Below are positions 14,480 to 25,062 of a DNA stretch of 52,062 bases, piece by piece (position 1 is the first letter of the stretch; every line of letters begins with the position of its first letter). The notes under the pieces were generated by a model. It was not told the DNA's origin, did no database searches, and was given only the letters and a program-made list of their open reading frames with translations. This DNA is from Anaerolineaceae bacterium UBA4799 (GTDB lineage Bacteria > Chloroflexota > Anaerolineae > Anaerolineales > Anaerolineaceae). A program made the position numbers and the translations under genes. The stretch covers positions 1 through 52,062 of the forward strand of contig DHGL01000013.1 in assembly GCA_002402725.1 (NCBI GenBank), read 5' to 3'.

Positions 14480-14510
14480 ATTATAACAATGAAAATCTTG
14501 AATTAAGCAA
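14480..14510 (-). promoter_or_regulatory. Possible promoter of the L,D-transpeptidase gene
   Basis: Minus-strand TATAAT at 14480-14485, with TTGCTT at 14505-14510 at a long 19-bp spacing that overlaps the recJ stop. If used, the 5' leader before ATG 14469 would be only a few nucleotides. Confidence 0.35.
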
Positions 14511-16839
14511 GGTCTTCCAAAAGCCTATCGAGATCAACCCGCATGAGGTAACTCGAAAAAGACTGCAGTTCGTCAAAAGAGCGCTTCAGTTCCACCTGGA
14601 GCCGCGCACGCTGCCTGTCATCAACTATTCCACCCGATACCAGACGGTAGCTTGAGGGTGATTTTTCAATGATACAGAAATGTCCGGAACTCGCCATCCA
14701 TTGCAGACCGAGCGCGGCGAGTTCAGGTGTGGTTGCTGTTTGAATGGCCATGTTTGTCAGGTCAAAATACTGTTGTTGCCTGCGAAGTCCATCTTTGACC
14801 AATTTGCCAATGGTTCGCAGAAAACCGGGAACCTGGTGTTCAACTGGTGAGATTAGAAACCAGTAAACCAGGCGGGGACGCGCTAACTGAATAATCTGTT
14901 GTAACACATGGATATCCGGGGGCATCGACCAGATTGCCAGCGATTCGCTGGGTTGAATTGCCAGTCTGTCAGAGCCGGTTATGGCCAGGCTGTACGAGCC
15001 TTCTTTCCATATAGAGAGCTCCTGTGATGCAGCACACCTGGCGAGTTCTTCGGTCGGCGTCTTGGAAGCCCGGTAATCAATACTTGCGATTTTTCTTGTG
15101 TTTTGATGGATTTCAACCGCGTTATCTTGATGAGCCTGTCTGTAATCGATCCACTCAAATTGCACCTGTTCAACCCCCCGGAAATTATTGGCATGAATGG
15201 TATAAGCGAGGTCAAAATTGCCTTCGGGTAAGGGCAAATCCGCGCCATTCCACCAGATGAACCGCGATGTTTCACCATTGAGGTCTTCCAGGTCGAGCAA
15301 TAAATGTTCATTCATTTTACCGACAACGCTGCTGTTCACGACACGCATCTTTTCAGCCGCGAAGCATAAGGCGGGGTTTCCAGGTCCAAAAGGTGAGAGA
15401 ACATCCAGCGAACGGGCATACTCCAAGTTTATTATAGACGGGGGTATAAAAGCATCAATTACCAGGTCAGCGCTGACATTAAGGTTAGAGGACATTTCGC
15501 CGATCGTTCTGTACATTCTCCGCTTGAAGTCCTCAAGAGAATCAGGTTGCAGGGACAACCCGGCTGCCAATGGGTGACCGCCATAGGAAAGAAGAAATTC
15601 CTTGTTTTTTGTGAGCGCGGCAGTGATATCCAGGCCTTCAATTGAGCGCGCGGAGCCGCGAATGGCTTCACCGGGGGGAGTAACCAGCAGGATGACAGGG
15701 CGGTGAAAGATCTCCACCAAACGGCTGGCAACGATACCCACTATCCCGGCCGGCCATTCCTGGTGGTGAAGGATCAGCAACGGCTGGTCGAGCAAGGTGC
15801 GGTCTTGTTCCAGTTGGGTCAGCGCTCCCTGGAATACCTGGTCGCATAAATATTTCCGCTGCGTGTTTAGACCTTCTATCTGGTTAACCATCACCGCGAT
15901 TTCAATCGCGTTTTCCGAAAGGAGAAAATTAACCAGCGGATTGGCATCACCCAGTCTTCCGACTGCGTTGAGGCGCGGAGCAAGAGTGAAGGAGATGTGT
16001 TCTTCAGCAATTCTAAAAAAATCAACAGCGGCGGACTGTAACAGCGCTGCCAGAGCCGGGCGCGGCGCTTTACGCAGCAGATTTAACCCTGATTGCACCA
16101 GGTAACGAGTCTCACCGGTGAGATAAGCCAGGTCAGCCACACACCCAAGGGCTGCAAGGTCGTGTAATTGATGTGCTCTTTCTGCCAAATGTTTCTCGGT
16201 CAACAAAGCTTCAGCCAACTTGAAGGCGGTGCCGGCGCCAGGTAGAGAGGTTAAGGGGTGACCCGTGGGTAGACGGTGCGGATTCACGAGCGCATACGCT
16301 GGCGGGAGCATCTCGGGTAAGACGTGATGGTCGCTCACAACGACATCGACGCTGCGGGATTGCGCGTAGGTAATGGAATCAAATGCCGAAACACCTGTAT
16401 CGCAGGTAAGAATCACCTGCACTCCCTGCGCCAGGAACTTCTCCAGAGCTACCAGGCTGATACCATGCGTCTCAGGTCCTCGCACCGGGATGTGGTAGGT
16501 GTGGTCTGCACCGAGTTCTCTCAAAGCCGCCACCAGAATGGCAGTTGAGGTCTGTCCATCCACATCGAAATCTCCCCAAACACCGATCCGTTGAGCGGAA
16601 TCGACAGCGCGCAGGATGCGCGACACAGCCTTATCCATGTCCGGTAATTCGTAAGCGGATGTGGAGCGGTAACAGGCAGGATCAATGAATTGCCTGGCTT
16701 GCTGGAGGTCTGTAAAGCCCCGGCGCACCAGCGTCTGGTATACGATGTCGGGATAATCTCCAAGCACTGTCAGAGACCTGGGGACTTTCACCTGCCCCAG
16801 CGTAATCCAATTGCGGTCAATATGTGGGGGACGGTACAT
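14503..16839 (-). CDS. recJ: Single-stranded-DNA exonuclease RecJ
   Basis: 778 aa from ATG 16839, 7 nt after the upstream stop; the longer frame to 16938 would overlap the nuclease gene and has non-family sequence. DHH phosphoesterase motifs are intact: 'GDFDVDGQ' at 89-96, 'LTCDTGVSAFD', 'SDHH' at 169-172, and the DHHA1 'GGHPLAAGL'. The OB-fold region follows. E. coli RecJ is about 577 aa; here an extra C-terminal region of about 200 residues has no motif I recognise. RecJ degrades 5'-ended ssDNA in recombination and mismatch/base repair. It is the last gene of the helicase-nuclease operon. Confidence 0.93.
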   Translation of the reverse strand: MYRPPHIDRNWITLGQVKVPRSLTVLGDYPDIVYQTLVRRGFTDLQQARQFIDPACYRSTSAYELPDMDKAVSRILRAVDSAQRIGVWGDFDVDGQTSTAILVAALRELGADHTYHIPVRGPETHGISLVALEKFLAQGVQVILTCDTGVSAFDSITYAQSRSVDVVVSDHHVLPEMLPPAYALVNPHRLPTGHPLTSLPGAGTAFKLAEALLTEKHLAERAHQLHDLAALGCVADLAYLTGETRYLVQSGLNLLRKAPRPALAALLQSAAVDFFRIAEEHISFTLAPRLNAVGRLGDANPLVNFLLSENAIEIAVMVNQIEGLNTQRKYLCDQVFQGALTQLEQDRTLLDQPLLILHHQEWPAGIVGIVASRLVEIFHRPVILLVTPPGEAIRGSARSIEGLDITAALTKNKEFLLSYGGHPLAAGLSLQPDSLEDFKRRMYRTIGEMSSNLNVSADLVIDAFIPPSIINLEYARSLDVLSPFGPGNPALCFAAEKMRVVNSSVVGKMNEHLLLDLEDLNGETSRFIWWNGADLPLPEGNFDLAYTIHANNFRGVEQVQFEWIDYRQAHQDNAVEIHQNTRKIASIDYRASKTPTEELARCAASQELSIWKEGSYSLAITGSDRLAIQPSESLAIWSMPPDIHVLQQIIQLARPRLVYWFLISPVEHQVPGFLRTIGKLVKDGLRRQQQYFDLTNMAIQTATTPELAALGLQWMASSGHFCIIEKSPSSYRLVSGGIVDDRQRARLQVELKRSFDELQSFSSYLMRVDLDRLLEDLA

Positions 16840-16846
16840 GGCGGTT

Positions 16847-17653
16847 TTAGAGGGCGTCAAAATCGAAAATGAAGTCTGACTCAGTAGCATCATTTTCTTC
16901 ACCAGCCGCGAGTTTACCGGCGGAAATCCCCCGGTCACACAGAGAACGATAGCGGCAATAAGCGCAACGTTTCAGTTCGGGTGTGCGCGTAAATTCTTCT
17001 TCCTCCATGTTCAAAATTTCATCAATTAACCGGGTAAGGTAATCCATATCCAACTCGTAGTCTGCTTGCGTGTACTCAAACCTGCGGGGTGTCTCCGGGA
17101 AGGTTGGAAACCAGTAGGTCATTTCAATCTCGGGTGAGGTGATGGAGGGATTCGAACTGGATAGCAAGATAAACCATAATACCAATGGATAAATACGGCT
17201 CTGCAGACGCTTTCGAAGTTGTTGCGCGGATGGCTGATGATTGCTGGTTTTCCAATCGTAAATGGTAAAAGCATGCGCAGAATCCTGGAGCAGGAGGTCA
17301 TATTTCGCCAACAGGCGCTGACCATGCAAGGATATAGACAACAGCTTTTCAGCACGCTTTACTCCCGGTTGCTCATTGAATCGGAGAGAAAGAAAGGCAT
17401 TCCACCAGTCAGCGAGTTCAGGGATTTGTATGGATTGGGAAAGGTCTTGCGGGTTCAACCCGACAAAATACTGCTGCACCAGGCGGTGAAATTGCTGACC
17501 CAACTCCACGCGCGTTTCTTGTAACATCATGGGCTCGCTTTCAATCGCAGGCCACTCCAACAAGTTGATGTGTCTCAATAGGAAGCGGAACTTGCAGTCC
17601 ACATAATCCTGCAGGTTATATTGAGAGAATGAGAAATTATCAGGTAGCTTCAT
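16847..17653 (-). CDS. PD-(D/E)XK nuclease with Fe-S cluster motif (Cas4/AddB-type)
   Basis: 268 aa. It has a RecB-like nuclease core: 'RLLAKYDLLLQDS' then 'FTIYDWKTS', giving the D...(D/E)xK active site. Cys20 pairs with a C-terminal Cys230/Cys233/Cys239 cluster ('CAYCRYRSLC'), the 4-Cys layout that holds a 4Fe-4S cluster in Cas4 and AddB nuclease domains. The start overlaps the end of the upstream helicase gene by 14 nt. No cas genes or CRISPR array are nearby, so a role with the two helicase-like proteins in the operon is much more likely than Cas4 function. Confidence 0.85.
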   Translation of the reverse strand: MKLPDNFSFSQYNLQDYVDCKFRFLLRHINLLEWPAIESEPMMLQETRVELGQQFHRLVQQYFVGLNPQDLSQSIQIPELADWWNAFLSLRFNEQPGVKRAEKLLSISLHGQRLLAKYDLLLQDSAHAFTIYDWKTSNHQPSAQQLRKRLQSRIYPLVLWFILLSSSNPSITSPEIEMTYWFPTFPETPRRFEYTQADYELDMDYLTRLIDEILNMEEEEFTRTPELKRCAYCRYRSLCDRGISAGKLAAGEENDATESDFIFDFDAL

Positions 17654-19886
17654 CTTTACCTTTCCAGATGGCGTTAAGCGCTTCCAGCGGAAGTGCCATT
17701 GTCTTATCCTTACTGCTTCCCGTGTTCCAGGTGATTACCAGTGATCGGCGGGCTCGAGTAATACCTACAAAGAGCAGGCGCAACCGTTCAGCGGCGTAAT
17801 CAACGCGCGCGTTTTCGGTGGCTTTGCCTTCAGGAGCGAATATCATAGCTTCATCCTCGGTCATTAAACCCGTGAGACGGTCAAGCAACTCCGCTTGCGG
17901 GTTGTAATTCTCGCGGATAAACCATTTTTCACCAATGTAGGTATCATGGGGTTGGGCTGAAGGAAAATCATAATTATTGACTGACATCAGGTAAACCCGG
18001 TCCCATTCCAGCCCTTTGGCTTTATGGTATGTTGAGATAAACACTTTTCCCTTGTGTGCGTCGGGGTCAAAACGCAGTTCCTCGTCGCTGAAACCGTTGA
18101 ATTTGCGAAAGTTCCCTGATATTTCCGCGAGTTCTACAGCATAATCTTTAAGCCCATATTCAGGGTGCAATTGAGCGCTGAATTCAAGCAGCAGCGCGAA
18201 TTTGTGTGCTAACGCGAGATCAGAAGGTTCTGAGAAAAGGTCATTGGAGATGCTAAGTACCAATTGGTCGATGGGTAGGAACGAAGCGTTCTGCCATCGT
18301 ATGAACCTTACGCGCAATTCCTCAAGTTCGGCAAGGAGAGTTTCTGAAGCGGTGACTGCTTCAAACCCCGCCTTCCAAGTCTTACCAGGCTGCGGGTAGA
18401 ACAATTCCTCAAGGCGCGCGTGTTTCTTTATGGACGAGAGCAGAGATTTAACCCCTTTGATTCCTTCTTCGTCCGAACTCTCCTTGGTCCATGCCAACTG
18501 GAGGGCTTGGACCAGCTTGTTGCTGTTGCCTGGATCATCCAGTGAAAGCAGTATCTTTTCAATGAGTGCGGCAACGCGGCGTGTGGATTGGCTGCTTTTT
18601 AATAATTCAACCAAGGGGATACCGGCGTTGTGCAGCGCTTCAGCTACTTTCTCTCCATACCAGCCGATGGGAGTGAGCACGGCTATAGTTTTATCCTGGT
18701 TGCCTGGCAACCAATTCAGAATATTCTCAACCACCCGTTTTATTTCCTCTTCCGGGGATGTTTTCATTTTTCTGATATAAACAGCGTTTGGTTGATCGGG
18801 TGGGTTCGGTTGGGGGTCATCGGGAGGAGTGGGTTCGATAAGGGGGTAATCGAGCGCGGAACGCAGCGCGGGAAGAGGATGCGATTCTCTTGTCCACTGG
18901 ATGAGAGAATTGGCCAACGTGATGATGCTATGATTTGACCTGCCGGAATGCGGCAGAGTCATTTCCATAACATCCTTTTCTTTAAGGAACGCTTTTAAGA
19001 ATTTTGGATCCGCGGTAGTGAAGGTTTCGTAGATCGCCTGGTTGGGATCACCCACACGCACCCAGTTGCCTTCAGTCCCAACGAGCAGACGCAGCATCTT
19101 TTCCTGCAGGTTGGAGGAATCCTGCGCCTCGTCTTCCAGGATGAAGGGCCAACGCTGGCGCAGGCGCTTTAGAAAATCATCATCATTCTGAAGCGCGGTG
19201 TACGCCAGGCGGATGAGGTCTGAGAAATCGAGCGCGCTACGGTATCGCAAACCGCGCTGGTACTGCTGGTAAACCTCAACCCCCATTTCAAGCATAGGAT
19301 TGGAACAATCATACTGCTGTATGCGGTGACGAATATCCTCAGGCTCCGCCTGCAGGTCTTTCGCCTGGCTGATGAAGTTCTGATTCAGCACTGAAACCAG
19401 GTTTGGAAAACCATTATGCTTGCGGCCAGCTGCGGCGGGGTCTGTATCTGGTTTAAGTAGATGAGTAGCGATCTCAGGGTGTAATCCGATATAAGCAATG
19501 GATATTTGCTCGATCATACGCTCGGATTCAACATCGTCAATAATTGAAAACTGGTTGGTCACACCGGCAAGGTCGGGTCTCTCCTGGATGATATCGTGCG
19601 CCAGACCGTGCAGCGTCCTGACACGGTAACTGACATTTTCCAATAAATGAGCCTCACGAACAAAACCACCAATTCGATTGAGAAAATTATCCACTGCCGA
19701 GTTGACCAGTGTTACGATGAGGATTTCCTGGTCGTTTTGTAAATCCCCGTTGAGAATCAACTGGGCGGCGAGATAGGATAATGTGTGCGTCTTCCCGCTG
19801 CCGGGAACTGCCGAGATCCCCATTTTTCCGTGCTTGTATTGCAGGATGCGGGTCTGGTTCAAACGCGGCTTAAACATCCGACCCAT
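17640..19886 (-). CDS. UvrD/AddA-like ATP-dependent helicase (no nuclease domain)
   Basis: 748 aa. All SF1A helicase motifs are present: Walker A 'AVPGSGKTHT' at 26-35, motif II 'DEAQD' in 'FILEDEAQDSSN', motif III 'RVGDPNQAIYETF', motif IV-like 'LPHSGRSNHS', motif V 'STYHKAKGLEWDRV', motif VI 'LLFVGITRARRSLVI'. The protein ends after motif VI with no RecB-type nuclease domain, unlike AddA or RecB. The start overlaps the upstream gene; ATG 19877 is an alternative to 19886, and both have GAGGG/GGG purine tracts upstream. Predicted role: the motor of a multi-subunit DNA-end-processing complex. Confidence 0.9.
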   Translation of the reverse strand: MGRMFKPRLNQTRILQYKHGKMGISAVPGSGKTHTLSYLAAQLILNGDLQNDQEILIVTLVNSAVDNFLNRIGGFVREAHLLENVSYRVRTLHGLAHDIIQERPDLAGVTNQFSIIDDVESERMIEQISIAYIGLHPEIATHLLKPDTDPAAAGRKHNGFPNLVSVLNQNFISQAKDLQAEPEDIRHRIQQYDCSNPMLEMGVEVYQQYQRGLRYRSALDFSDLIRLAYTALQNDDDFLKRLRQRWPFILEDEAQDSSNLQEKMLRLLVGTEGNWVRVGDPNQAIYETFTTADPKFLKAFLKEKDVMEMTLPHSGRSNHSIITLANSLIQWTRESHPLPALRSALDYPLIEPTPPDDPQPNPPDQPNAVYIRKMKTSPEEEIKRVVENILNWLPGNQDKTIAVLTPIGWYGEKVAEALHNAGIPLVELLKSSQSTRRVAALIEKILLSLDDPGNSNKLVQALQLAWTKESSDEEGIKGVKSLLSSIKKHARLEELFYPQPGKTWKAGFEAVTASETLLAELEELRVRFIRWQNASFLPIDQLVLSISNDLFSEPSDLALAHKFALLLEFSAQLHPEYGLKDYAVELAEISGNFRKFNGFSDEELRFDPDAHKGKVFISTYHKAKGLEWDRVYLMSVNNYDFPSAQPHDTYIGEKWFIRENYNPQAELLDRLTGLMTEDEAMIFAPEGKATENARVDYAAERLRLLFVGITRARRSLVITWNTGSSKDKTMALPLEALNAIWKGKDEAT

Positions 19887-22017
19887 CCCTCAGGCGCACG
19901 CATGAGCGCAGAACAGTTTGCAGTGCCTGCAACAGTTGACCACGTTCTTCAAGGCCATGCTCATTATAGTTGACGCTGCACATAAAAATATGGTCACTGC
20001 AGCGCCTGACTAACCCCATAACAATGCGGGCAAGTGTCAATTGATTATTGATATACTCATTTTCATCAGTCCATTTTTCACCGACAGGCCAGTTGCGATT
20101 GAGAACGTAGGGTTGCGTCAGGGGCTGCTCCAGCCTGGACCACCAGCCGTTAGAGCCGATGTCGACCCAGAACTGGTACTTCACCGGCCGGTTGCGCATC
20201 AAGAAAGAGTAAGCAGGAGACAGGAAAACCACATCTGCGTCATTCAGCGCCAGGGAAGGCGGGTAAGCTTGAGAAGAGAGCAACCCCTTTTGCAGCACCC
20301 GGGTGAATTCCTCGCCCGACCCCGATAATTTTGTTTTATCACCCGGTTGATAAATCTTTCTGAATTCCCGGCAGGATTCGATCAGACGGCTGATGGCCGT
20401 CGCGGCATCATAATCATTGTGAAAACCAAAACCGGGTTGAGAAAGACATTCCCCAAAAAGACGACTAATCCATAGATCAAGTTCATTCCTTCCTTGTTCA
20501 AGATTCTCCTGGAGCCAGGTATGCAGCCGCTCGTAATATTCGCCAACACGAAAGGAGATGCGCGATTGCATATCGATCTGGAGCCCCTGGTAGGATAATA
20601 ACTGAAACCCTGCGTTTCCAGCCTTGAAAAGGGTGCGAGAAAGCAGGTCAGCGCGTACAAAATCACAATCAGCAATCACCATGGTAAAAGCTGACCTCGC
20701 CTGCTGCATTGAGGGTTTACGCTGCCATGAAGGATGTGCCATTTCGGCCAGCGTGAGAACCGCCTGAACTGCGGGTTCATCGTGTAAACTGCGTGAAGGA
20801 CGGTAGGTCGTGAAAGGGATACCCGCGTTTGACAAGCGGTTGGCAAAAGAAAAACGTAAGGCATCGCTGAGATACGGTGTGAGAATGGCGATTTCGCCGG
20901 GGTTTATTGAATCCTGTTTTAAAAGCGTCTCAATTTCACCTGTGACCCAATCGAGCACTTCAGGATAAAAGCGGAATGTCTGGATGGTATAGCTACTTTG
21001 CATTCCTTTGGATTCGGTCGCAATTATGCGATGCTCAAGGATGCTTTCATGCAGCGCAGATTCGAGACTTTGCAGTGGACTGGTCTGAACCAGCGAGGAT
21101 GTCATTCGTATTTGTCCGGTGCATTTTTCAGCCAAACGCTGAGCGCTGGTAGTGTCCGCGCCTAAAAAGGAACGATAGCCTCCGCCTTCATCCTGAATCA
21201 GAAGAGCAGAATCAAGGTTGGGAAGCAATTCAGCCACGAAATCATGTGCGATGGGAAAGTCTTCTTCAATATTGTCGTATATGAGATGTCGAAAGGTGCT
21301 GTAGAGATGCTGCTTGCAGAGCAGCGAAGGCCATAATTTTTCACAAAAAATGGACAATTGAAGTGAAAAATCCAGAAAGTTTTTCGCAAGGCAGAACTGC
21401 CGGAACATTAACGCGCATTCCTGCGCCTGCTCGTAGATATTGTTTTTTGAGGTTTTCCCCGCCCAGGCGGATGAAAGGCGATTGGCAATCTCAGCTGGGG
21501 GGAAACCCACCACGGCGGATTTGTTGAGATTATCCAGTATCTGACTGTATAGCCGGTTTGGGTCAATGGTGAGGCTTTCAAAATAACCCTGTTCCAGCAA
21601 AGGCTCGACAATACCCGCCAGGTAGTACTGGGCATTCTCCATGTTGAGAAAGTGTGGGGATTCAGCGGCTCGAAAACCCGCGTCAGCGGCGATGAGCGGC
21701 CAGAAAAGAGAAACTATGCGCTGTGCCAACCCGTTAAATGTGAGCAATTGCGGCTGGCTGCCTGCCGGGAAATCTGGCGCGTGGATGAGTCTGTAATATT
21801 CAGCTGCAAGACGCCGTTGTGGCACGAGCACCAGGATGCTATCGCCATCGATGCCATTTTCTACTAAGTACCGCATGCGCAGCACACCCGCAGTAGACTT
21901 GCCGGTTCCGGCTTTACCCGTTAAAAGCCGACTGCCCGTAATAGGGGCAGTAACCACCGCGGATTGATTCTCCGTGAGCATGTGATTAGCAGGAAATCCT
22001 GGCTGAAATGGACTCAA
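19870..22017 (-). CDS. Degenerate UvrD/AddB-like helicase-fold protein
   Basis: 715 aa from TTG 22017, which overlaps the preceding TGA (TTGA); ATG 21981 is the alternative. Walker A is intact ('GKAGTGKST', residues 34-42) after a Q-like motif 'LTENQSAVV'. The later helicase motifs are eroded: motif II reads 'LIYDNIEEDFP' instead of VDEAQD, motif III 'LLIQDEGGGYRSFLGAD' lacks the GDxxQ, motif V is 'VVFLSPAYSFLMRN', and motif VI lacks TRAR. This pattern recalls the inactive helicase half of AddB or RecC, which scans rather than drives translocation. It has no nuclease domain; the separate Fe-S nuclease two genes on may supply it. Confidence 0.75.
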   Translation of the reverse strand: MSPFQPGFPANHMLTENQSAVVTAPITGSRLLTGKAGTGKSTAGVLRMRYLVENGIDGDSILVLVPQRRLAAEYYRLIHAPDFPAGSQPQLLTFNGLAQRIVSLFWPLIAADAGFRAAESPHFLNMENAQYYLAGIVEPLLEQGYFESLTIDPNRLYSQILDNLNKSAVVGFPPAEIANRLSSAWAGKTSKNNIYEQAQECALMFRQFCLAKNFLDFSLQLSIFCEKLWPSLLCKQHLYSTFRHLIYDNIEEDFPIAHDFVAELLPNLDSALLIQDEGGGYRSFLGADTTSAQRLAEKCTGQIRMTSSLVQTSPLQSLESALHESILEHRIIATESKGMQSSYTIQTFRFYPEVLDWVTGEIETLLKQDSINPGEIAILTPYLSDALRFSFANRLSNAGIPFTTYRPSRSLHDEPAVQAVLTLAEMAHPSWQRKPSMQQARSAFTMVIADCDFVRADLLSRTLFKAGNAGFQLLSYQGLQIDMQSRISFRVGEYYERLHTWLQENLEQGRNELDLWISRLFGECLSQPGFGFHNDYDAATAISRLIESCREFRKIYQPGDKTKLSGSGEEFTRVLQKGLLSSQAYPPSLALNDADVVFLSPAYSFLMRNRPVKYQFWVDIGSNGWWSRLEQPLTQPYVLNRNWPVGEKWTDENEYINNQLTLARIVMGLVRRCSDHIFMCSVNYNEHGLEERGQLLQALQTVLRSCVRLRDGSDV

Positions 22018-22589
22018 TACGGCATCCCGGCAATGGCGTGCAATACAGCCCTGGTGAGCAGGGCATCGGCGGAAGACCGGTGGGCATTGGGCAAGGCAAT
22101 TTGAAAGAAAGCGCCGGCCTCAGCGAGTTTAAAGTAACGGTAAGATTTACGGAACGGGTCCCATTCCCCACGAAAATCTGAGAACAACTGCATCACATCC
22201 AGGAAATCCAGCCTTTCACGCCAGGGTAATCGGTATCGCAGATGGGTTTGTTCCATCATCCTGGCATCAAAGGATGAATTGTAAGCAGCGATTGTTCTTC
22301 CGTATAAAATTGACCTGAGCTGCGGCCAGAGGATTGGCCAGGGGTGAGCATCCATTACTTTTCGGTTGGAAATCCCATGAATCTTTTCCGCTTCCACTGG
22401 AATGGGGATGGTTGGTTTGACCATTTTTGAGAAAAGTTCGGTGCCGTCGTGGTCGATAACGGAAACCTCGATGATCTCATCACCTTTGGTAATGCCTGTT
22501 GTTTCTGTGTCCAGGTAGACGGGTTTGAGGGTCAGTTTCTGCCGCGCAATTTCGCGCACGTGCTTCTGATGGTCAGTCAGTATTGTCAA
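22014..22589 (-). CDS. DnaQ-like 3'-5' exonuclease (DEDDh)
   Basis: 191 aa from TTG 22589 with SD AGGA 8 nt upstream; no ATG fits better. Exo I motif 'YLDTETTGI' (Asp27, Glu29), Exo II 'AYNSSFDARMM', Exo III 'HRSSADALLT' with the His-x4-Asp of the DEDDh class. Stand-alone members proofread, trim 3' ends or degrade RNA. It lies 16 nt after the lipoprotein gene and its stop overlaps the next start by 4 nt, so it is part of the helicase-nuclease transcript. Confidence 0.88.
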   Translation of the reverse strand: MTILTDHQKHVREIARQKLTLKPVYLDTETTGITKGDEIIEVSVIDHDGTELFSKMVKPTIPIPVEAEKIHGISNRKVMDAHPWPILWPQLRSILYGRTIAAYNSSFDARMMEQTHLRYRLPWRERLDFLDVMQLFSDFRGEWDPFRKSYRYFKLAEAGAFFQIALPNAHRSSADALLTRAVLHAIAGMPY

Positions 22590-23483: not shown

Positions 23484-23541
23484 GTCTCTGTCGCTGTGAA
23501 TTGTGGTACACGGACAAGAAAATTTACAGTCATCCCTACAG

Positions 23542-23547
23542 TATAAT
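23542..23547 (+). promoter_or_regulatory. -10 element for the baseplate-J-like/ruvX/mltG transcript
   Basis: TATAAT lies only 12 nt before ATG 23560, so the transcript would have a leader of about six nucleotides or none, and no SD precedes the ATG. A TTTACA at 23523-23528 is too close (13 bp) for a standard -35. Confidence 0.45.
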
Positions 23548-23559
23548 TCTGTAAACCTT

Positions 23560-25062
23560 ATGAAAACGGTAATCCTGCAAGTAGAAGCCTATGATAATGT
23601 CGCTTCAATCCGCGATAAAATCATCGGGTCCAGGGCAGAAAGGATACTGCTGGTCATTCCCCGGCAAAAACGGGCATTCCCAAATAGGGTTGAACTTACC
23701 CTTTTATCACGCCTGGCGCAAGAAAACGGTGCCGCCTTTGCGCTTGTCAGCCGCAGCGACATCACCCGAGAATACGCTGAGAGTTTAGGTATAACCGTTT
23801 TTGGGTCAATCCCCGAGGCGCAAAAGGGCGAGTGGCAACTGGTTGATGAACCTGTAAACCTGGCGGCTCGTTTCCGCGGGAAAGAGGGCGTACTCAGAAT
23901 GCGCGAGGATCTGCCAATGGCAGCCACGACAAGGTCTCCTCACCCCATAATCCGGTTATCGATGATATCCATGTCTATTCTTGCGATTTTTGCATTGCTG
24001 ATTTTCCTCATTCCATCAGCCACCATAGTTGTGTACCCAGAACCTGAAACCCAGTCGGTTACAGTAGACATCCGCGCATCCACAGCAATCTCGCATTCGA
24101 GTGTCACAGGTCTATTACCGGCGATGGAAGAGCCCTTATCCGTATCCGGCCAAAAAACGCTTACCAGCACAGGTTCGATTACGATAGGCACGGAAAAAGC
24201 GCGCGGAGAAGTTACGGTGCGCAATTTGACCACCGAAGCGCAAGAGATCCCTGAAGGCGCGTCCTTTGTGACAGGCGGAGAACAGAAATTGAGGTATATC
24301 GTTGTTGCCAGTGTGAATCTGCCTGCTGAAAGCAAAGGAGTTATCGTTCCGGTGGAGGCTTTATTGCCAGGCATCGAGGGTAACATTGGACCCGGGATGA
24401 TCACGCTTCTAGAAGGGAGCAGCGGCTTGAAGGTCGAGGTGACCAATGAAGCACCGATAACCGGAGGCGCGTCCAAAAGTGTCAACTCACCAACCGAAGG
24501 AGACTATCTACTCGCACACAGGTTGCTCTTAAGTGAACTGGAGGAAAAGGCATTGAAGGCGATTGAAAACGGCAGTTCACAAGAGAAAACACCTGTTCCA
24601 GGTAGTCTAAAATTATTCCGGGTGGAATCAGAAGAACGAGAGAACCCGGTCGGAGAGCCTTCAGATACGGTCACACTGAATATGACAGCAGCCTATACGG
24701 TACTCGTCTATGACACAATTGAATTAATTACCCTGGTGGAGGATGTGCTGAACTTCTCAATACCCGAGGGCTACCACGATGCTGAAACCCCCACAAGTAT
24801 CATTAATCAGGAGGAAGTCACAATTGACGCGGAGGGAGAAGCCTCCTGGCAGGTAACCGCTAGCCGCCAGGTTCTGAAGGACATTGAAAAACAGCCATTG
24901 ATTATGATGCTCAGAGGAATGGAAAGATCAGAGGCAATCAAAAGACTCAATGAAGAGATCACGAATGTCAAAGAAGCCGAAGTACAGACCTTTTTGAAGT
25001 GGTGGCCCTGGCTGCCTTTCTTCACTGGCCGCATTAACCTGGTTGAAGGGGTCAGCGGATAA
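23560..25062 (+). CDS. Membrane-anchored baseplate J-like protein
   Basis: 500 aa from ATG 23560. About 140 N-terminal residues look cytoplasmic ('ILLVIPRQKRAFPNRVELTL'), then one membrane segment about 150-170 ('LSMISMSILAIFALLIFLIP'), then a large external beta-rich region. The middle ('ARGEVTVRNLTTEAQEIPEG', 'LLPGIEGNIGPGMI') resembles baseplate J/gp47 proteins of phage tails and contractile injection systems, but no other tail or injection genes are near. It is conserved in position with ruvX and mltG. The function is unknown. The stop overlaps the ruvX start (TAATG). Confidence 0.7.
   Translation: MKTVILQVEAYDNVASIRDKIIGSRAERILLVIPRQKRAFPNRVELTLLSRLAQENGAAFALVSRSDITREYAESLGITVFGSIPEAQKGEWQLVDEPVNLAARFRGKEGVLRMREDLPMAATTRSPHPIIRLSMISMSILAIFALLIFLIPSATIVVYPEPETQSVTVDIRASTAISHSSVTGLLPAMEEPLSVSGQKTLTSTGSITIGTEKARGEVTVRNLTTEAQEIPEGASFVTGGEQKLRYIVVASVNLPAESKGVIVPVEALLPGIEGNIGPGMITLLEGSSGLKVEVTNEAPITGGASKSVNSPTEGDYLLAHRLLLSELEEKALKAIENGSSQEKTPVPGSLKLFRVESEERENPVGEPSDTVTLNMTAAYTVLVYDTIELITLVEDVLNFSIPEGYHDAETPTSIINQEEVTIDAEGEASWQVTASRQVLKDIEKQPLIMMLRGMERSEAIKRLNEEITNVKEAEVQTFLKWWPWLPFFTGRINLVEGVSG

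Follow-up and report, generated by a model that had tools for sequence, protein, structure and literature searches.

A set of four genes within a five-gene run in a 52,062-nucleotide stretch of DNA from Anaerolineaceae bacterium UBA4799 (phylum Chloroflexota; contig DHGL01000013.1 of assembly GCA_002402725.1; the whole stretch is hereafter called the window) looks like an undescribed DNA-trimming machine that probably acts at broken ends. The open reading frames (ORFs) of the window and domain searches placed all five genes on the minus strand at 14503-22589, encoding an exonuclease (EXO), a pseudo-helicase (HB), a helicase (HA), a stand-alone nuclease (NUC), and a RecJ; an earlier reading of the bare sequence, termed the original prediction below, had described the same single run. 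We think it rather probable that HB, HA, NUC, and the RecJ, a long paralogue denoted RecJ-L, are subunits of one DNA-end-processing machine for recombination. The genes and their diagnostic segments are as follows, with protein lengths in amino acids (aa).

22014..22589, minus strand: EXO, DEDDh 3'-5' exonuclease, 191 aa; RNase_T domain PF00929 (E 1.1e-14); an accessory gene in some relatives.
19870..22017, minus strand: HB, pseudo-helicase of UvrD fold, 715 aa as listed; Walker A retained, motif II changed from DExx to DNxEE; match to the UvrD N-terminal domain only.
21895..21918, minus strand: HB Walker A, GKAGTGKS, from the alignment of relatives.
21259..21276, minus strand: HB motif II, DNIEED replacing DExxD, from alignments of relatives.
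17640..19886, minus strand: HA, active-looking superfamily 1 (SF1; UvrD-type) helicase without a nuclease domain, 748 aa; UvrD N- and C-terminal domains.
16847..17653, minus strand: NUC, stand-alone iron-sulfur (Fe-S) PD-(D/E)XK nuclease, 268 aa; PF12705 (PDDEXK_1; E 2.2e-25).
14503..16839, minus strand: RecJ-L, long RecJ paralogue, 778 aa; TIGR00644, clade of long RecJs, conserved motifs.
14506..15048, minus strand: C-terminal extension of RecJ-L, about residues 598-778, after the RecJ OB domain, from the alignment.

The order of these genes is conserved. A scan of genome contigs with HB returned 262 encoding places, of which the best 80 loci, all with titles reading as Chloroflexota, were kept; the HB of the closest locus (L001) was 80% identical to that of the window. 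Where the contigs were long enough, HA was located no more than 6 kb downstream of HB in 61 of 67 loci, NUC downstream in 50 of 65, and RecJ downstream in 35 of 51. The HB-HA-NUC order is far beyond chance, and the conservation across relatives that the original prediction had proposed as a check was confirmed for HB-HA-NUC-RecJ. Its five-gene unit held for these four genes but not for EXO, which was found upstream of HB in 24 of the 71 loci with room for it (within 300 bases in 21). All five genes occurred in order in 19 of the 80 loci, some of which were too short to show all of them. EXO is an accessory of some relatives, and HB-HA-NUC-RecJ-L is the real unit.

The genes also co-occur in genomes. 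HB was found in 46 of 400 sampled genomes of the phylum. A sample of 150 Anaerolineae genomes, many of them fragmented assemblies, was then searched with E-value limits of 1e-10 for HB, 1e-90 for HA, 1e-20 for NUC, and 1e-8 for an AddB model, and with RecC judged by its own cut-off. HB was detected in 80 of these genomes, HA in 77, NUC in 72, and the AddB model in 40. HB and HA occurred together in 76 genomes, HB only in 4, HA only in 1, and neither in 69; the corresponding numbers for HB and NUC were 70, 10, 2, and 68, and HB, HA, and NUC were present together in 68 of the 82 genomes with any of them. RecC exceeded its cut-off in 3 of the 150 genomes (G146, G471, and G496), all without HB and too few to prove exclusion, and gave two more weak matches.

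The genes are kept even when they are not neighbours. In the 76 genomes with both genes, HB and HA lay within 6 kb of each other in 54, apart on one contig in 3, and on different contigs in 19, some perhaps because of contig breaks. In eight genomes, the contig continues at least 3 kb past HB without HA (L133, L135, L140, L141, L148, L149, L150, and L152), and HA was found elsewhere in all eight and NUC in seven (the exception being G276). On a single 3,989,163-base contig of genome G379, HB, HA, and NUC are located at about 2.22, 0.20, and 1.03 Mb, respectively. Distances compared over 10 genomes (45 pairs; Pearson) were correlated at 0.82 for HB-HA, 0.70 for PcrA-HA, and only 0.59 for PcrA-HB, and because of the last value vertical inheritance is not claimed. 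In the genome of Leptolinea sp. HRD-7, which is titled complete, NUC is the only PF12705 protein and the AddB model gave no match.

The same four genes were found outside the Chloroflexota. Plasmid pSR56 of Salinibacter ruber M8 (Rhodothermota) carries HB, HA, NUC, and recJ in one run, scoring 836, 936, and 316 bits against the HB, HA, and NUC family profiles and 516 bits for RecJ by single-sequence comparison. The plasmid HB grouped with the window HB and 51 others (support 82), outside a distant HB branch, with a highest identity of 46%, and the plasmid RecJ fell among the long RecJs. The simplest reading is a joint transfer of the four genes to the Salinibacter plasmid. Upstream of the module (L210, NC_014028.1, 7954-9823) the plasmid encodes an XRE/M78 regulator and a hypothetical protein (202 aa) of no clear family, and no EXO match was found in the run, these two genes included. 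Since the plasmid run is without EXO, HB-HA-NUC-RecJ-L is the minimal unit. Plasmid matches in Ilyobacter and Methanomethylovorans were weak or partial and without the neighbour genes, and they were rejected. Among viral contigs, 64 stretches matched a pattern and none was confirmed as a relative, and the phage records searched gave no match. Given the co-occurrence, the genes kept although apart, and the four-gene run on a plasmid of another phylum, the HB, HA, NUC, and RecJ products very probably work together.

The RecJ of the window scored 471.7 bits against TIGR00644 (curated cut-off, 396.9 bits) and contains the DHH, DHHA1, and OB domains (PF01368, PF02272, and PF17768), in agreement with its earlier identification as RecJ. 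Judged by its sequence, it is probably distinct from the housekeeping RecJ and corresponds to a longer paralogue that relatives carry as their second RecJ. Among 26 genomes searched, two RecJs were found in 15 of the 16 HB-positive genomes, counting one (G014) whose second RecJ is a fragment below the cut-off, versus a single RecJ in all 10 HB-negative genomes; G379 was the one HB-positive genome with a single RecJ. A tree was built from the RecJ core, with the C-terminal extension excluded and every second one of the 40 long RecJs sampled. In it, a clade with support 100 united the plasmid RecJ with 27 long RecJs, and the other 24 RecJs, including those of all 10 HB-negative genomes, were placed apart. 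The window RecJ belonged to the long-RecJ clade and not with the housekeeping RecJ. The RecJ of the HB-negative L235, with an open frame of 1073 aa, was grouped with the HB-negative RecJs, where its core falls. The C-terminal extension was detected in 60 of 80 HB-positive genomes versus 0 of 70 HB-negative genomes, and in 54 of the 68 genomes holding HB, HA, and NUC. Compared with solved structures, the extension had no convincing relative; the 30 weak matches contained no RecJ chain and many winged-helix regulators. Among the RecJ-L relatives, the GDxDxDG and DHH motifs were found in 40 of 40 copies and GGHxxAA in 39 of 40.

HB retains its nucleotide-binding motif and has lost a catalytic one. 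The Walker A lysine was present in all 89 ungapped rows of the relatives' alignment, and the catalytic glutamate of motif II was replaced by asparagine in 90 of 90 rows, as expected of the UvrD-fold protein with intact Walker A and eroded later motifs that had been described before. All 24 rows of another set, which included distant HBs and the plasmid copy, had the DNxEE form. The predicted HB model (pLDDT, predicted local distance difference test score, of 89.2) has a fold matching UvrD, AdnB, and AddB, and the sequence search against solved structures gave matches mainly over the ATP-binding stretch. The HB relatives listed, at least 120 (two listings of 120 each), were 536-732 aa long and without PF12705; open frames of up to 1320 aa in GC-rich genomes were taken for upstream extensions rather than fusions. 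Most HB rows share a strongly conserved loop at about residues 629-642 (QPLTHPYVLSRxW-like), located between motifs V and VI. Domain 2A of AddB carries an ionic latch helix (PMC4824097); the HB model has no helix of four or more residues at 618-649, a stretch whose correspondence with the latch is approximate.

The 13 motif residues checked in HA were all invariant in 54 of 54 rows, and only UvrD domains and no PF12705 were found in it, so that the motif-positive UvrD-like helicase without a nuclease was recovered as predicted. The HA model (pLDDT 86.8) aligns full length with UvrD, AdnB, and AddA, and by sequence HA is closest to UvrD/PcrA among solved structures. HA is broken into two ORFs in contigs L044, L071, and L077, by sequencing error or decay. 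NUC has its own ORF with a PF12705 domain, and its Fe-S cysteines C20, C230, C233, and C239 (an N-terminal Cys plus CX2CX5C) and catalytic-site residues H56, E102, D119, D133, K135, Q151, and Y155 were invariant in 44 of 44 sequences, which fits its earlier description as a stand-alone Fe-S PD-(D/E)XK nuclease. Sequence comparison of NUC with solved structures gave marginal matches only. From the motif residues kept and lost, HB looks able to bind ATP but not to hydrolyse it, and HA, NUC, and RecJ-L look active.

We infer that the four products would form a complex that acts on double-strand breaks. HA would be the sole motor and would unwind the duplex from its end, and HB would be a second arm of the complex that guides or senses one separated strand, by analogy with AddB and RecC. 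NUC would cut one of the unwound strands. Its likeness to the Fe-S nuclease of AddB, and the lack of another, AddA-type nuclease, make the 5'-ended strand the likeliest target; in AddAB, the AddB nuclease cuts the 5' strand and the AddA nuclease the 3' strand. RecJ-L, docked via its C-terminal extension, would digest the 5'-ended strand further, leaving a 3' overhang for RecA. EXO could trim 3' ends in the window and some relatives.

Several observations weigh against this proposal. No protein fusion between subunits was seen, and the RecJ extension was not detected in 20 of the 80 HB-positive genomes; at least 9 of these 20 belong to the distant HB branch, in which G055, G154, G276, and G466 do have the extension. 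The co-occurrence counts follow kinship and are inflated by it, so their Fisher values are not true probabilities. The plasmid copy could indicate a mobile function. AddB-like genes were found in 26 of 80 HB-positive and 14 of 70 HB-negative genomes, so there is no sign that the module replaces AddAB, and since 53 of the 150 genomes were without HB, AddB, and RecC alike by these searches, the absence of AddAB is in itself not telling. As for the absence of recBCD and addAB from the same genomes, which the original prediction had proposed to look for, RecC was found in 0 of the 80 HB-positive genomes. The combination that it had named as unfavourable, a complete AddAB, AdnAB, or RecBCD elsewhere together with no conservation of gene order, was not encountered because the gene order is conserved, despite the coexisting AddB-like genes.

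The cluster had been called a split AddAB, and its parts list does parallel AddAB without the fusions. As an account of origin, which would be compatible with the function as a machine, AddAB (or AdnAB) would have been split by gene fission, with HB and NUC derived from AddB and HA from AddA minus its nuclease. The identical parts list is in line with this, as are the matches of HB and NUC to AddB profiles (E about 1e-11 to 1e-13), the match of HA to AddA over 669 columns, and the fold alignments, in which about 585-665 residues of HB and HA were matched to AdnB and AddA/AddB. However, the one-to-one match to AddA and AddB in a first hhalign run was undone by PcrA and UvrD-Cas4 controls. HB scored 104.8 with AddB, 103.7 with PcrA, and 111.4 with UvrD-Cas4; NUC scored 94.8 with the AddB nuclease and 101.2 with the UvrD-Cas4 nuclease; and HA scored 320.6 with AddA, 359.7 with PcrA, and 343.9 with UvrD-Cas4. 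HB is thus as near to PcrA and UvrD-Cas4 as to AddB, and NUC is as near to the UvrD-Cas4 nuclease as to that of AddB. Because the control profiles removed the AddA/AddB distinction, descent by the splitting of an AddAB was abandoned as an explanation. Nor was AddB set apart by the fold searches: UvrD, Rep, and PcrA came top by Z, and AdnB and AddB aligned over more residues. In a quick helicase tree of 62 sequences (midpoint root, a long HA branch, Chloroflexota references only, and every third of 54 HA rows plus 5), HA (23 rows) and AddA (19 rows) formed separate groups, each with support 100, and AddA joined the UvrD-Cas4 helicases (support 95) rather than HA. Motif II and the cysteine spacing of the module also differ from those of Chloroflexota AddBs: DNxEE occurred in 0 of 25, DG[FY] being matched in 18, and CX3CX5C was found in 24 of 25 (L153-L154, L167-L169, and L173-L192) versus CX2CX5C in NUC. 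A Walker A pattern that is perhaps too strict was matched in 0 of 25 AddBs and was used for no claim. AddB and AddA adjoined in 20 of the 25 AddB loci read, and in one locus (L154, 3435-6710) a 1092-aa helicase-like ORF (DEAD + Helicase_C) is located directly upstream of addB-addA. Fission of AddAB or AdnAB appears quite improbable, and the AddAB-like split architecture is supported as an analogy, not as descent.

Other functions were weighed for the same genes. A genome-maintenance machine for gaps, stalled forks, or lesions, working alongside AddAB or RecFOR rather than on double-strand breaks, would agree with the coexisting AddB-like genes, with the closeness of HA to UvrD/PcrA, and with the role of RecJ as the 5' nuclease of the RecF pathway (PMC4846377). 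Against it, the joint presence of a helicase, a pseudo-helicase, and a RecB-type Fe-S nuclease is the hallmark of end-processing enzymes, and HRD-7 has no PF12705 match other than its NUC; we regard this function as unlikely. Defence against phages or plasmids, by a module that pairs a helicase with a nuclease, is improbable. GajB helicases of Gabija are the best PADLOC matches of HA, NUC has weak Cas4 matches, one intact copy is on a plasmid, and UvrD-Cas4 fusions occur in restriction-modification contexts (PMC5704561). However, several genomes retain the genes at separate chromosomal places, HB occurs in 80 of the 150 genomes sampled from one class, viral contigs yielded no confirmed relative and the phage records searched no match, and none of ten window neighbours scanned had a defence-type Pfam match. 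Among the PADLOC matches listed for the five proteins (the top 25 of 50 in the case of HA), GajA did not appear, and HA aligns over its full length with UvrD, AdnB, and AddA. That housekeeping genes adjoin by chance with no joint function is scarcely credible: RecJ and UvrD-type helicases are common genes, but the conserved order, the co-occurrence, the plasmid run, the second RecJ, the extension pattern, and the RecJ clade all disagree with it. A joint end-processing machine is the reading that we retain.

The gene limits given by the original prediction were amended at one and possibly two starts, the five genes being otherwise as described. The RecJ start is most likely the ATG at 16839 (778 aa) rather than the GTG at 16938; with this start RecJ need not overlap NUC, the apparent overlap having been made by the upstream GTG. 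HB may start at the TTG at 22017 or the ATG at 21981, and a 99%-identical HB relative (P0001) has 703 aa. Several of the ten window neighbours scanned against Pfam are housekeeping genes, among them those for RuvX, YceG, an L,D-transpeptidase, and a HemN-like radical SAM protein. A 519-aa protein with a Baseplate_J match (window 23503-25062) adjoins ruvX.

If the proposed machine is real, it would allow resection without first destroying the 3' strand, and a Chi switch might be unneeded because of the single RecB-type nuclease and the built-in 5' exonuclease. Resection in bacteria without RecBCD or AddAB is often credited to RecF-pathway enzymes, and the module would supply a candidate resection enzyme for about half of the sampled Anaerolineae. 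It would also test whether resection needs a motor-nuclease fusion, and would provide a case of a pseudo-helicase that arose in parallel to AddB and RecC. Carriers such as Leptolinea and Salinibacter ruber make the module testable.

A survey lists RecBCD, AddAB, and AdnAB as the known enzymes; it reports AdnAB from no group but the Actinobacteria and one or other of the three enzymes from 88% of genomes (PMC6452273). No description of an HB-HA-NUC-RecJ module was found in the literature searched, nor anything on RecJ in Anaerolineae or on Salinibacter ruber pSR56. We tentatively suggest, with somewhat less than even confidence, that the module is a further class of resection machine beside these three, with an all-separate motor, ATP-binding pseudo-motor, Fe-S nuclease, and dedicated RecJ, assembled independently of AddAB and characteristic of Anaerolineae, with one unit on a Salinibacter plasmid.

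Among other systems, Clostridiales operons with unfused UvrD and Cas4-like genes, and UvrD-Cas4 fusions with a pfam12705 nuclease, also place an SF1 helicase beside or fused to such a nuclease (PMC5704561); the section concerned mentions no pseudo-helicase or RecJ, and HA forms a clade separate from five fusion helicases. UvrD-Cas4-type fusions with open frames of 913-987 aa are present in several Anaerolineae (L155-L159, of which L155 was scanned for domains), and the genome of L001, the closest relative, is one of these. The RecJ of Deinococcus likewise has an additional C-terminal domain, which binds the motor HerA (PMC4663267), but the presumed motor of the module is SF1 and not HerA as in RecJ-HerA/NurA. 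The HA and HB folds align with AdnB over about 585-640 residues. AdnAB carries a nuclease domain on both subunits and consists of two motor-nuclease fusions, whereas none of the cluster proteins is fused. The cluster differs from RecBCD in having no RecD and a motor without a nuclease, and no RecC or RecD model was among the listed matches of its five proteins; RecC is likewise an inactive helicase fold, serving as scanner and guide. The module resembles AddAB in having a single active SF1 helicase alongside an inactive helicase-like subunit and a four-cysteine Fe-S RecB-type nuclease; a crystal structure also shows a nucleotide analogue bound in the helicase-like domain of AddB (PMC4824097). 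However, HA contains only UvrD domains and no C-terminal nuclease such as that of AddA, HB and NUC are separate ORFs rather than an AddB-type fusion, one nuclease is present instead of two, HB has DNxEE, and a RecJ paralogue is added. Judged on these sequence traits, the module at most works like AddAB and is not a member of it as tested.

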